Source: Puniceicoccus vermicola
GTDB taxonomy: Bacteria; Verrucomicrobiota; Verrucomicrobiia; Opitutales; Puniceicoccaceae
NCBI RefSeq assembly: GCF_014230055.1
Contig: NZ_JACHVA010000101.1
Location: forward strand, 1-64,000
Direction: 5' to 3'
DNA length: 64,000 nucleotides
Shown here: positions 23,976-62,843 of the stretch, piece after piece
Position numbering within the stretch: position 1 is the first letter of the stretch
Layout of the letters: each line of letters starts with the position of its first letter
Made by a program: the position numbers and the translations under genes
The notes under the pieces: generated by a model
Told to the model about the DNA's origin: nothing
The model's input: the letters and a program-made list of their open reading frames with translations, nothing else
The model's database searches: none

Positions 23976-24020
23976 GGGGCTTGTGACCTTCTCAGGATCT
24001 CGAGACCTAGAAAAACGGGC

Positions 24021-24066
24021 AAAAAGAAACCCTTCGTTTATCGGAAGGGTTGGAAGAATGGCTGCC
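24021..24066 (-). repeat. Orphan copy of the tRNA-Asn terminator with a tRNA 3' scrap
   Basis: Read on the minus strand, the hairpin AACCCTTC/GAAGGGTT followed by TTTCTTTTT is the same as the terminator behind tRNA-Asn at 25.9 kb. To its right, 24057-24066 keeps the end of a tRNA 3' acceptor (TTGGGCAGCCATT on the minus strand). No GIY-YIG gene follows this copy. It is the most decayed of four cassette copies. Confidence 0.7.
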
Positions 24067-24221
24067 CAAGCATAAATTGGTTTCAGAGGGCCTTCCGCAT
24101 TCGCCATTGTCCGGAAAAGGTCACAGATCAAGTCATTATGGTAGACTCTTCAATATTTTCGGGGGTGGTTTCCATGGCACGATTTCAATCAATTCAATCA
24201 CCGGTCTCTAAAGGCCACTGC

Positions 24222-24255: not shown

Positions 24256-24507
24256 ATGAAAACACTCACCTGCACATTAACCAAGCGCGGGCAAATTTCT
24301 GTGCCGGCATCTATACGCAAGGATCTGGGTCTGCGTCCGGGGCAGAGGCTGCGTTGGGAAAAAATCGCCGGAGGCGAGTGCCGGGTGACGGTGGAGCAGG
24401 AGGGCGCACCCGGTCCTCTGGCCGCACTGGGGTTTGGTCCGAAGCTCCGGGGCGACGATGGCAAGGCCACTTCTGACTGGATGAAAGAGTTGCGGGAGGG
24501 CGAATAG
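24256..24507 (+). CDS. VapB-type AbrB/MazE-fold antitoxin
   Basis: 83 residues. The N-terminal swapped-hairpin AbrB DNA-binding fold is clear (LTKRGQISVPASIRKDLGLRPGQRLRW); the C-terminal part would bind and block the toxin. It probably represses its own promoter through the two ACATGAT repeats. The gene is two bases upstream of the toxin gene. The mRNA may lack a 5' leader. Confidence 0.88.
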   Translation: MKTLTCTLTKRGQISVPASIRKDLGLRPGQRLRWEKIAGGECRVTVEQEGAPGPLAALGFGPKLRGDDGKATSDWMKELREGE

Positions 24508-24509
24508 GC

Positions 24510-24920
24510 ATGGCTTGGGTTGTAGATACTTGCGTCGTTATCGACGTGCTTGAAAACGATCCTATGTTTGGAGTCGGCTCCGCGAAGAAGCTTCAATCGC
24601 TCCTCGACCAAGGGCTAGTGCTGTGCCCGGTCAGTATGGTCGAACTTAGCCCGGCCTTCGCGGGAGATTTGACTGCCCAGAAGTCCTTTCTGGATATGTG
24701 TGGAATCTCCTATCACGAGCCCTTCACTTTGGCTGATAGTGAGACGGCGCATGTGGCGTGGAATGCATACATCCAGGCCAAGCGCAGCAAGCAGGTCGCC
24801 AAGCGTCCAGTGGCGGATTTGCTCATCGGAGGATTCGCTCTACGTTTCGACGGTTTGGTAACCCGCAATCGCTCTGATTTTCAGCGTTGGTTCAGAGGCC
24901 TCAAGATTGTAGAGCCCTGA
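24510..24920 (+). CDS. VapC-type PIN-domain toxin
   Basis: 136-residue PIN ribonuclease. The four acidic active-site residues are seen at D6 (WVVDTCV), E45 (SMVELSPA), D103 (PVADLLIG) and D123 (RNRSDF), so it should be active against RNA, in known cases tRNA or rRNA. Nearby tRNA cassettes make a tRNA target an attractive but unsupported idea. It is followed by a 70-bp gap and then the GIY-YIG repeat region. Confidence 0.9.
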   Translation: MAWVVDTCVVIDVLENDPMFGVGSAKKLQSLLDQGLVLCPVSMVELSPAFAGDLTAQKSFLDMCGISYHEPFTLADSETAHVAWNAYIQAKRSKQVAKRPVADLLIGGFALRFDGLVTRNRSDFQRWFRGLKIVEP

Positions 24921-24991: not shown

Positions 24992-25105
24992 TTAAAGAAT
25001 CTTAGCCTCAGGTGAATTGTGTTGGCGAAGGCGTCTATGTATATCCTCAGTGTGGCCGATGTAGAGTCGGCCTTTGAGATTTTCGAGGATGTAGACGTGA
25101 AACAT
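24992..25105 (-). pseudogene. GIY-YIG nuclease, truncated copy C
   Basis: 37 residues: MFHVYILENLKGRLYIGHTE continues to QHNSPEAKIL and stops. It keeps the GIY-YIG-type core (VYIL...LYIG) but lacks the rest of the domain that copies A and B have after QHNSPEGKEHLGKY. The break is abrupt, and the sequence to the left is unrelated, so this is the damaged edge of the repeat array. The longer open frame reported to 25201 reads through the terminator and tRNA relic and is not real. Confidence 0.75.
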
Positions 25106-25109
25106 GGGC

Positions 25110-25141
25110 AAAAAGAAACCCTTCGTATATCGGGAAGGGTT
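25110..25141 (-). terminator. tRNA-type terminator, copy C
   Basis: Minus-strand hairpin AACCCTTC/GAAGGGTT followed by a T-rich run. One loop base differs and the loop is one base longer than in the copy behind tRNA-Asn. It ends four bases before the ATG of the truncated GIY-YIG copy. Confidence 0.7.
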
Positions 25142-25144
25142 CAA

Positions 25145-25227
25145 TGGCTGCCCAGGTAGTCCCGCGACCGCGGGATCCGACAAAGTGATTAATCCCGACA
25201 AGGTCGGGACTCTACCGCTGAGCTACT
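25145..25227 (-). pseudogene. tRNA-Asn relic C carrying two palindromes
   Basis: Compared with the intact tRNA-Asn at 25888-25962, this copy keeps the 3' acceptor and CCA, the variable-loop side (GACAAAGTGATTAA on the plus strand) and the D arm with part of the 5' side. The T arm is interrupted by the palindrome TCCCGCGACCGCGGGA (25160-25175). The 5' anticodon stem is replaced by TCCCGACAAGGTCGGGA (25193-25209), removing the GTT anticodon context. The first acceptor bases are replaced by the end of GIY-YIG copy B. It cannot be a working tRNA-Asn but would make a very structured RNA. Confidence 0.75.
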
Positions 25228-25477
25228 AATCGAATAGTTCTCGGACTTTTTTTGGCGATTTCCAGCTTTTGAGTTGTTTCTCTCGTTGCATGGCCTTTGC
25301 GCGAGTTGGGTAGTTCTCAGATCCGAGAAATCTCCATGGGCCGTTTCTGTGCGTATACTTCCCGAGATGTTCTTTGCCCTCTGGAGAGTTGTGCTGGCTG
25401 AGACGTCTCTGACGGTCTTCCGTGTGTCCAATGTAGAGGCGCCCCTTTGGGTTTTCTAAGACGTAGACGTGAAACAT
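25226..25477 (-). CDS. Small GIY-YIG nuclease, copy B
   Basis: 83-residue single-domain GIY-YIG protein of the UPF0213/YhbQ-like group: VYVLENPKGRLYIGHTED (GIY-YIG core), R in RRLSQHN, HRNGPWRF, and E in QREKQLKSWK. These proteins are predicted DNA endonucleases related to SLX1/UvrC N-domains. ATG 25477 follows the U-run of terminator B by four bases. The stop lies inside the next tRNA relic. It is about 75% like copy A by eye. Confidence 0.82.
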   Translation of the reverse strand: MFHVYVLENPKGRLYIGHTEDRQRRLSQHNSPEGKEHLGKYTHRNGPWRFLGSENYPTRAKAMQREKQLKSWKSPKKVRELFD

Positions 25478-25481
25478 GGGC

Positions 25482-25512
25482 AAAAAGAAACCCTTCGTTT
25501 ATCGGAAGGGTT
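25482..25512 (-). terminator. tRNA-type terminator, copy B
   Basis: Minus-strand hairpin AACCCTTC-N8-GAAGGGTT followed by TTTCTTTTT, identical to the copy behind tRNA-Asn. The GAAGGG strand could also be the only Shine-Dalgarno-like sequence for GIY-YIG copy B. Confidence 0.75.
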
Positions 25513-25515
25513 GGA

Positions 25516-25590
25516 TGGCTGCCCAGGTAGGGATCGCGACCGCGGGATACGACAAAGTGATTAATCCCGACGGAGTCGGGACTCTACCGC
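25516..25590 (-). pseudogene. tRNA-Asn relic B carrying palindromes
   Basis: Same design as relic C. The 3' acceptor, CCA and variable-loop side match tRNA-Asn. The T arm contains a CGCGACCGCGGGAT insertion around 25535-25548. The 5' anticodon stem is replaced by TCCCGACGGAGTCGGGA (25565-25581). The D arm is reduced to GGCGGTAGAG, and the 5' acceptor is missing beside the stop of GIY-YIG copy A. Not functional as tRNA-Asn. Confidence 0.75.
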
Positions 25591-25594
25591 CAGT

Positions 25595-25849
25595 TTATCG
25601 TTTGAAGAGTTCGCGAACCTTTTTCGGAGACTTCCAGGCTTTGAGCTGTTTCTCGCGTTTCATTGCGTCGGCTCTCGAGTCAAAGTCCTCGGATGCGATG
25701 AGTTTCCAGGGCCCATTGCGGTGGGTGTATTTGCCGAGATGCTCTTTCCCCTCAGGTGAATTGTGTTGGCCAAGGCGTCTTTGTATATCCTCAGTGTGGC
25801 CGATGTAGAGTCGGCCTTTGGGATTTTCGAGGATGTAGACGTGAAACAT
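25595..25849 (-). CDS. Small GIY-YIG nuclease, copy A
   Basis: 84 residues, full-length single GIY-YIG domain: VYILENPKGRLYIGHTED, RRLGQHN, THRNGPWKL and the conserved glutamate in KREKQLKAWK. Predicted DNA endonuclease. It starts four bases after the U-run of the intact tRNA-Asn terminator, with no promoter space of its own, so expression would need readthrough of the tRNA transcript. A TTG six bases upstream lies in the terminator and is unlikely as start. Confidence 0.85.
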   Translation of the reverse strand: MFHVYILENPKGRLYIGHTEDIQRRLGQHNSPEGKEHLGKYTHRNGPWKLIASEDFDSRADAMKREKQLKAWKSPKKVRELFKR

Positions 25850-25853
25850 GGGC

Positions 25854-25884
25854 AAAAAGAAACCCTTCGTTTATCGGAAGGGTT
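25854..25884 (-). terminator. Rho-independent terminator of tRNA-Asn
   Basis: Minus strand: AACCCTTC, 8-base loop, GAAGGGTT, then TTTCTTTTT. It begins three bases after the encoded CCA of tRNA-Asn. The same hairpin is repeated three more times to the left (copies B, C and the orphan at 24.0 kb). Confidence 0.85.
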
Positions 25885-25887
25885 GGA

Positions 25888-25962
<75 letters not shown>

Positions 25963-44624: not shown

Positions 44625-44739
44625 CGGAGCGCGGACTTTAGTCCGCCCCGATGGATTGGCCGCGACGGAGAGGAATCTTCGGCGAGGAGACGGGAATGTG
44701 ACTGCGGGGCATGCGGGGCGGACTGAAGTCCGCGCTCCG
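44625..44739. repeat. Inverted pair of a 26-bp palindromic repeat
   Basis: Two copies of one 26-bp sequence face each other at 44625-44650 and 44714-44739, identical at 25 of 26 positions. Each contains its own palindrome (GCGGACTTTAGTCCGC and GCGGACTGAAGTCCGC). The whole is a 115-bp unit with 63 bp between copies and no gene, like a small MITE. It lies between two convergent coding ends. Confidence 0.75.
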
Positions 44740-62165: not shown

Positions 62166-62218
62166 GTTTAGAACGGGGCTCAGATCGTTTCCCTGTAGGT
62201 GGGGGTAGCCTTTAACCC

Positions 62219-62843
62219 GAATGGCAGTTTAAGAGCTCTTGCGAAGATAATCTGGCGATTGGCACGTCGAAAAGAACCCCTCCATCCCGCGTCCGCGGGA
62301 TCCCCCTCCCCTCCAAGCAGGGGAGGAGTCTCTACTGAAGTTTTCAACTTCCCTCCTACGAGCATATCCTTACACACATTTTTCTCGTCTCTTCGAGTCG
62401 ACGACAATGCTTATGACAAGGAACTTAGATTGGGTTAAGGTTTTCGCTGGATTCGTGACGGTCCATCGGTGCGCTGAAAGCGCCATTCAAGATTAGCCTC
62501 GGGCTACGCCCGAGGATCCCAAAGCAAGAAATGGGCACGCTGAAAGCGTGCTTTAGCGCGTTCATCCGGAGCGATTGAGGTAGGACTTTCAGCCTACCAG
62601 CTATCCCATCCGTTTCACCTCGGGCGTCGCCCGAGGCTAGGGTAAATAAGACCTTCGGCCTTAGGAGGGAGCAATCGAACAAAGTCAAACCACAGTGAAA
62701 TTAGCCTCTCAACCAAAAGTATGTTCAAGACCGTGTTGCTCACCGGATTTGTGTGTAAGGATATGCCTACGAGTAGGAGGGGGGGACCAGCGCCAGCTGG
62801 TGGGGTGGTTTCGCGATGCGTAGATATCCTTAAACTGCCATTC
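62219..62843. mobile_element. 625-bp MITE-like element with terminal inverted repeats
   Basis: Ends are perfect 15-bp inverted repeats: GAATGGCAGTTTAAG (62219-62233) and CTTAAACTGCCATTC (62829-62843). It is flanked by 11-bp direct repeats GCCTTTAACCC (62208-62218) and GCCTTTGACCC (62844-62854), as after transposition. A second perfect inverted pair of 17 bp lies inside (62362-62378 and 62750-62766). There is no transposase; the centre is an array of short palindromes: ATCCCGCGTCCGCGGGAT (62284), CCTCCCCT/AGGGGAGG (62305), GCGCTGAAAGCGC (62471), CCTCGGGCTACGCCCGAGG (62497), GCACGCTGAAAGCGTGC (62535), GGTAGG/CCTACC (62579) and CCTCGGGCGTCGCCCGAGG (62618). Confidence 0.75.

Follow-up and report, generated by a model that had tools for sequence, protein, structure and literature searches.

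In at least 10 phyla, among the matches listed, bacteria carry extra copies of an essential gene, that of tRNA-Asn, and hairpins of a single kind disable these copies at one precise position. In the window analyzed here (the whole 64,000-nucleotide stretch from Puniceicoccus vermicola), two such copies alternate with genes for small GIY-YIG nucleases behind an intact tRNA-Asn gene. This arrangement hints at a selfish cutter, one that inserts copies of itself into tRNA genes. It would imply either a selfish tRNA-gene cutter with a built-in rescue or a new hairpin-inserting activity, it offers a reason for the recurrence of small GIY-YIG genes beside tRNAs, and it has a simple sequence signature, GGTAGAG-TCCCG-N3-12-CGGGA.

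The tandem tRNA-Asn array of the window

Read on the minus strand from 25966 to 25001, the array consists of an intact tRNA-Asn(GTT), a GIY-YIG gene, a tRNA relic, another GIY-YIG gene, another relic, and a third, truncated GIY-YIG gene; the period is 372 bp (Table 1). The terminator hairpin of the tRNA-Asn recurs behind both relics and behind a remnant of a tRNA-Asn 3' end that is probably the far end of the array. Between this remnant and the truncated GIY-YIG gene lies a toxin-antitoxin-like pair (24256-24920, plus strand), consisting of a gene for a MazE/PrlF-like antitoxin and one for a PIN-like protein that has no Pfam match. Among the Rfam covariance models at the gathering threshold, two intact tRNAs match in the window; the relics have no match, and no non-tRNA family was found.

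Table 1. Features of the tRNA-Asn array and a dispersed palindrome of the window
Feature	Position	Strand	Basis
Intact tRNA-Asn(GTT), 5'-most array member	25888..25962	-	ARAGORN and Rfam RF00005, 68.9 bits
tRNA-Asn terminator hairpin	25861..25884	-	Sequence; 45-nt repeat family D3
GIY-YIG nuclease gene 1 (86 aa)	25595..25855	-	Pfam PF01541, E=2.7e-18
tRNA-Asn 3'-type relic, right, GGA palindrome	25516..25591	-	nt 34-50 and 55-75 identical to intact gene (L171)
Hairpin TCCCGAC-N3-GTCGGGA replacing tRNA nt 25-34, right relic	25565..25581	-	Sequence
Partial GC palindrome, T arm of right relic	25535..25547	-	Sequence
GIY-YIG nuclease gene 2 (85 aa)	25226..25483	-	Pfam PF01541, E=6e-17
tRNA-Asn 3'-type relic, left, AAG palindrome, nt 6-75	25145..25227	-	nt 6-23, 34-48, and 61-75 identical to intact gene
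Hairpin TCCCGAC-N3-GTCGGGA replacing tRNA nt 25-34, left relic	25193..25209	-	Sequence
Full palindrome TCCCGCG-AC-CGCGGGA, T arm of left relic	25160..25175	-	Sequence
Third GIY-YIG gene, truncated	25001..25111	-	Match E=6e-15, 37 aa
tRNA-Asn 3' end and terminator remnant	24017..24073	-	Repeat families D3/D4
Dispersed palindrome TCCCGCG-TC-CGCGGGA, no tRNA adjoining	62285..62300		14 family copies genome-wide, reversed control 0

In both relics, CAGGTGACTG (about nt 25-34 of the intact tRNA-Asn, comprising the 5' anticodon strand and the first anticodon base) is gone and TCCCGACnnnGTCGGGA stands in its place. An earlier sequence-only reading of this DNA, which had described this swap of the 5' anticodon stem, located both palindromes exactly (TCCCGACAAGGTCGGGA in the left relic and TCCCGACGGAGTCGGGA in the right one), and it was also right in seeing a T-arm palindrome, which the left relic has in full and the right one in part, and a GC palindrome near the end of the window, TCCCGCGTCCGCGGGA, which comes from a 14-copy dispersed family. 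The 5.2-Mb genome contains two exact copies of TCCCGACnnnGTCGGGA, both in the window relics, which rules out TCCCGAC-N3-GTCGGGA as a dispersed repeat of its own genome. Unlike this anticodon hairpin, the T-arm TCCCGCG type is dispersed in the same genome (14 copies), and the form with the AC center found in the left relic has one other copy (L039).

The two window relics are tandem copies of a single 372-bp unit, with 93% identity over 56 nt, and therefore prove little by themselves. The sequence-only reading had argued that random decay would not hit both copies at the same places; within the window, this coincidence possibly reflects common descent, and it is because the swap recurs in other genomes that it must be regarded as more than chance.

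A second site was found in the same genome on contig C75, where the order is an intact tRNA-Met, a different GIY-YIG gene, a tRNA-Met relic, and another GIY-YIG copy. Palindromes are thus present near another tRNA/GIY-YIG site, as the earlier reading had anticipated: the anticodon arm of the tRNA-Met relic contains TCCCGCGTCCGCGGGA, identical to the palindrome of the 14-copy family, and its T arm contains CCAGCAAAGCTGGTCCCACTGAGCGGGA, so that the same two arms are struck in unrelated tRNAs. The dispersed copies of TCCCGCGTCCGCGGGA are embedded in a larger repeat (tggcactagtttaag ... cccctccA-palindrome-Tccccctcccctgc ...; window positions 62200-62660, loci L031-L049), a composite REP-like element with further hairpins and about a dozen copies. 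A palindrome of another type, GCGGACTN2AGTCCGC, occurs twice in the window, at 44631-44646 and 44718-44733, ~87 bp apart.

Recurrence and anatomy of hairpin-bearing tRNA fragments

The pattern TCCCGN4-10CGGGACTCTACC is present in 9 of the 384 genomes of the class, and nearly all of the matches are tRNA-Asn relics. A wider pattern scan covered 84,980 species genomes, with counts given for the matches listed. The 118 stretches listed include at least 67 tRNA relics, at least 50 of them of tRNA-Asn and the remainder of tRNA-Gly, fMet, Phe, or Thr or unassigned. The Asn swap beside an intact tRNA-Asn was identified, among these matches, in Verrucomicrobiota, Thermodesulfobacteriota, Planctomycetota, Spirochaetota, Myxococcota, Hydrogenedentota, Nitrospirota, Zixiibacteriota, Ignavibacteriota, and Chloroflexota; the Gly cases listed come from Balneolota and some of the fMet, Thr, and Phe cases listed from Bacteroidota. 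A tRNA-Gly example (L161) is carried by Rhodohalobacter sulfatireducens. Another array, with an upstream relic, the intact tRNA, a GIY-YIG gene, and a downstream relic, was detected at tRNA-Leu by a GIY-YIG search in the genome of a Bacteroidota match. Analogous swaps are present in tRNA-Met, fMet, Gly, Leu, Thr, and Phe and probably in tRNA-Asp, the likely identity of the relic at locus L181, where the tRNA-Ile(gat) called by ARAGORN proved to be a false call on a hairpin-bearing relic; such relics may be misannotated as tRNA genes. Carriage by plasmids or phages was considered and rejected, given that the GIY-YIG matches there are few and distant and that the nine pattern matches on viral contigs lack a tRNA-relic context.

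Because all of these patterns demanded TCCCG, an unbiased gap pattern, CTCAGN1-3GGTAGAGN13-30TTAAYCA, which allows any 13 to 30 nt, was run on 388 genomes of the phylum. It yielded six matches, and all six inserts are TCCCG hairpins. In a set of 80 loci, 54 of 74 TCCCG hairpins abut GGTAGAG, and most of the other 20 likewise lie in tRNA relics.

The arrays share a general architecture: n upstream units (tRNA nt 1-23, hairpin, nt 34-46, and spacer), the intact tRNA, and n downstream units (GIY-YIG gene, tRNA nt 10-23, hairpin, and nt 34-75). Upstream fragments thus represent the 5' part of the tRNA and downstream fragments the 3' part, and nt 10-46, common to both, form an overlap that resembles a direct repeat. 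The swapped-in element is a 15- to 18-nt TCCCG hairpin that replaces the segment around the 5' anticodon strand. Nucleotides 24-33 are retained in none of 87 fragments, most of which come from loci chosen by the hairpin, with the loci chosen by the nuclease alone in agreement. The flanks usually match the intact tRNA of the same host at 100% identity. Where a relic starts past the anticodon arm, that hairpin is missing (L174, nt 46-75; tRNA-Ser loci L188, L214, and L230). In a minority, namely, tRNA-Met and one tRNA-Asn locus, the 3' instead of the 5' anticodon strand is swapped, and hairpins are also found in arms other than the anticodon arm. One locus (L209) contains five short tRNA-Asn 3' fragments (nt 54-76), about 95-300 and 657 nt past the start of tRNA-Asn; four of the five are in a 62-nt tandem, and each is preceded by a hairpin of another type, TTCCGAA-N4-TTCGGAA, after GTTAA or a near variant.

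Among loci with at least 700 nt of downstream sequence, a GIY-YIG gene is present in 24 of 25 with a downstream relic and missing from 6 of 14 arrays with upstream relics only; two genomes with such GIY-YIG-less arrays have UvrC-type GIY-YIG matches only. The role of leader RNAs for the nuclease genes, which the sequence-only reading had suggested for the relics, is not supported by this layout: most of them lie downstream of the GIY-YIG gene and overlap its 3' end, and upstream relics also occur at tRNAs without a nearby nuclease gene.

The hairpins covary. In the first set of 56 distinct anticodon-arm hairpins (15-18 nt), stem pair 6 is A-T in 29, C-G in 23, and G-C in 4, that is, paired in all. 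Across 23 hairpins of equal length, 98.1% of the cells pair, and the covariation score is 0.272; shuffles give 0.079 (0/500), and sliding the alignment lowers the score to about 0.05 or less. Of 63 distinct relic hairpins, 62 keep the sixth pair, compared with 20 of 55 chance matches outside tRNA relics (Fisher p = 1e-14; like the other pairing figures, these are raw counts that ignore kinship among the sequences). Constraint falls on the stem, and the loop varies freely. Kept stems with variable loops, noted in the window by the sequence-only reading, are therefore also a property of the homologues, where stem pairing is retained, and the palindromic micro-elements that it proposed are repeatedly present at fixed tRNA positions. 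Some GIY-YIG frames extend across the relic hairpin and end directly behind it, at GAT-TAA; in the cases noted, the 16-nt hairpins (L124, L083, L084, L010, and L008) and the 17-nt ones (L089, L112, and L114) appear to be read in two different frames, with the same GAT-TAA stop kept.

The GIY-YIG protein and the dispersed palindromes

The nuclease is a single-domain GIY-YIG protein of about 85 aa. Its Pfam domain scores 62-67 bits against a cut-off of 22.6, which places it in the GIY-YIG superfamily, and Y7, Y17, G19, R27, and E68 are invariant in eight GIY-YIG proteins. The closest solved structures by sequence are UPF0213 (PDB 1zg2 and 1ywl) and SLX1 (E=1.5e-14, 7.6e-10, and 1.1e-6). Comparison of window copies 1 and 2 gives a pS of 0.86, with synonymous sites saturated, and a pN of 0.108; the window protein is therefore under purifying selection. 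The Asn-linked members of a tree of 90 GIY-YIG domains group together across phyla (7 label changes versus 29.8 when shuffled, 0/500), a result limited both by the small number of columns and by the selection of the set with an Asn-type profile. The linkage is of the kind a homing unit would have, with Asn-type genes at tRNA-Asn and no array at the same tRNA in the gapped assembly of a sister genome. This genome, of the same genus, has the same tRNA-Asn/tRNA-Ser site without a GIY-YIG gene or downstream relic and with assembly gaps (N) inside both tRNAs. At this locus (L246, G127:C66), the N runs in tRNA-Ser and tRNA-Asn have overlapping ends. Since tRNA arrays may hide in assembly gaps, the array counts are lower bounds, and such arrays may account for some assembly breaks at tRNA genes. 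A 1.1-Mb genome (G747, L077) has 18 GIY-YIG matches, mostly small and single-domain, far above the other genomes searched.

In each of the 12 carrier genomes tested, the pattern TCCCGN5-8CGGGA is commoner than its reversed control, with counts from 9/2 to 352/26 (e.g., 131/5 and 182/9), and the sampled dispersed copies look intergenic and lie away from tRNA genes. Together with the 14-copy family of the window's own genome, this constitutes dispersal of the REP kind. Y1_Tnp genes were found in 20 of 21 genomes checked compared with 5 of 14 controls, with 48 copies in the window's genome. The genome-wide enrichment and the Y1 transposases thus make the TCCCG class REP-like. The 20 sampled dispersed TCCCG regions share neither a REP tag (GTAG or CGTC) nor a flank; GTAG is confined to sites at which it comes from the tRNA D loop and is absent at CATAA^hairpin and T-arm sites.

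Candidate explanations and known systems

Our preferred, still tentative reading is a SegB-like homing unit, specific for a tRNA isotype, that carries or regenerates its own tRNA and whose hairpin marks the disabled target in the displaced halves. The GIY-YIG protein would be a putative free-standing, isotype-specific homing-type endonuclease with a recognition site within the anticodon-arm part of the tRNA gene. Repair of the cut would use a copy of the unit, either resident or incoming, that would carry or re-form an intact tRNA, and the old tRNA would be displaced, its 5' half upstream and/or its 3' half downstream. The hairpin, apparently recruited from the dispersed REP-like class of TCCCG palindromes, would be the junction of the element and would protect the displaced halves from cutting; the restored tRNA would remain a target, so that repeated rounds would build up tandem arrays. 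The upstream-5'/downstream-3' order, the exact loss of one segment, the link to GIY-YIG genes, and the clustering by isotype fit a homing-type unit, and we infer that the GIY-YIG enzyme cleaves the tRNA gene. The hairpin-disabled fragments are consistent with an enzyme that would cut the empty allele and spare its own. Against this reading, several upstream-only arrays have no GIY-YIG gene nearby, the intact tRNA should be cut too, the choice of a TCCCG-starting hairpin as the junction is not accounted for, and there are 3'-side swaps (tRNA-Met and one tRNA-Asn) as well as hairpins in other arms. It is possible, and we suggest this more guardedly, that there is a whole class of minimal selfish chromosomal elements in which isotype-specific GIY-YIG enzymes invade essential tRNA genes, bring along or rebuild a functional tRNA, and stamp the displaced halves with TCCCG hairpins. 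If true, this would be a natural cleave-and-rescue system common to ten or more phyla, with hairpins made by some further machinery.

It is somewhat unlikely that the hairpins are simply REP-type palindromes, possibly mobilized by Y1 (RAYT-like) transposases and with a preference for entering single-stranded DNA able to form hairpins, as in tRNA arms; extra tRNA copies would tolerate them, selection would keep the intact gene, and the GIY-YIG proteins would act as bystanders or structure-specific helpers. The sequence-only reading had put forward a version of this, preferred landing sites of palindromic micro-elements, which is still live because TCCCG palindromes are dispersed genome-wide. 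The enrichment in 12/12 genomes with sampled copies away from tRNA genes, the excess of Y1_Tnp (20/21 versus 5/14), and the TCCCGCGTCCGCGGGA that the tRNA-Met relic shares with the dispersed family all argue for it, as does the D-loop GTAG two bases before the hairpin, which resembles the GTAG-1/2 REP layout (PMC3733652). However, the window anticodon hairpin has no copy outside the relics in its genome, no GTAG is present at T-arm hairpins or those after CATAA, and the TCCCG hairpins of the 80 loci concentrate at GGTAGAG (54/74) and, for most others, in tRNA relics. The swap is position-exact and total (0/87 exceptions) and is linked to isotype and to GIY-YIG genes, and landing leaves unexplained why every anticodon-spanning relic has a hairpin and why 5' fragments lie upstream and 3' fragments downstream.

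A distinctly unlikely alternative has the fragments functioning as tRNA-like structured RNAs that control the processing or stability of tRNA or nuclease transcripts, the hairpin being a substitute anticodon-arm stem. Stem covariation with free loops is consistent with such a role, as is the retention of relic and terminator sequence next to genes whose synonymous sites are saturated. In upstream units, the tRNA 5' strand pairs with species-specific spacer (140 pairs versus 95 in shuffles, sd 15.5), but this pooled signal of the closed-cloverleaf test is moderate, with per-unit p mostly >0.1. No Rfam family other than tRNA reaches the gathering threshold in the window, similar hairpins lie away from tRNA genes, and some upstream relics have no nuclease gene, all of which argue against an RNA function. 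That the hairpins break homology, or prevent misfolding or misprocessing, between neighboring tRNA copies, so that only interrupted arrays survive recombination, is very unlikely: the fragments, otherwise mostly 100% identical to the intact gene, are indeed cut into 12- to 42-bp tracts, which extra T-arm hairpins shorten further, but any substitution would do, and the conserved TCCCG, the exact position, and the base pairing are left unaccounted for. Ordinary tRNA pseudogenes decaying after tandem duplication have hardly any probability. The two window relics do share ancestry through the 372-bp duplication; however, unconstrained decay is contradicted by cross-phylum recurrence, flanks mostly identical to the intact gene, and stems kept in 62/63, and it is rejected by the gap search and by the replaced segment being absent throughout (0/87). 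The claim of the earlier reading that the relics are not plain pseudogenes is borne out on these grounds.

The preferred homing-type reading draws on SegB, a free-standing GIY-YIG homing endonuclease of T-even phages that is implicated in breaks in tRNA-containing DNA and drives the amplification of tRNA-Tyr-segB units in tandem; the 5' end of the tRNA and the 3' end of the nuclease gene share microhomology (PMC13096335). Common to both systems are a GIY-YIG gene directly linked to a tRNA gene and tandem tRNA-plus-nuclease units. In contrast to SegB, the present units are chromosomal and found in many bacterial phyla, the enzymes are single-domain proteins of about 85 aa nearest to UPF0213/SLX1, and the duplicated tRNA pieces are truncated, with a covarying hairpin in the anticodon arm. 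The nearest solved structures, UPF0213 (1zg2 and 1ywl) and SLX1, are themselves entries for stand-alone hypothetical proteins or an SLX1 subunit.

REP/BIME elements with RAYT transposases comprise GTAG and CGTC superfamilies (PMC3733652). The hairpins resemble them as short palindromes with stems of 5-13 bp and loops of at least 2 bp, dispersed intergenically in genomes that contain Y1 transposases, and GTAG precedes the Asn, Gly, and fMet hairpins. They differ from REP/BIME in that the sampled dispersed TCCCG copies have no fixed tetranucleotide, the hairpins sit at exact tRNA positions in displaced halves, and the window anticodon hairpin has no dispersed copy. Integrative elements that use tRNA genes (genomic islands) restore the tRNA and leave a tRNA fragment at their far end. 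The present arrays likewise keep a functional tRNA and a far-end tRNA fragment, but no integrase gene was seen in an unsystematic look at them, the units are about 330-370 bp, and the fragments span most of the tRNA and occur as 5' as well as 3' halves. Searches of the open-access literature gave no account of tRNA fragments that bear such hairpins and accompany GIY-YIG genes, and there is a fair chance that this combination of a SegB-like tRNA-linked homing nuclease with REP-like palindromes represents a distinct class of element.
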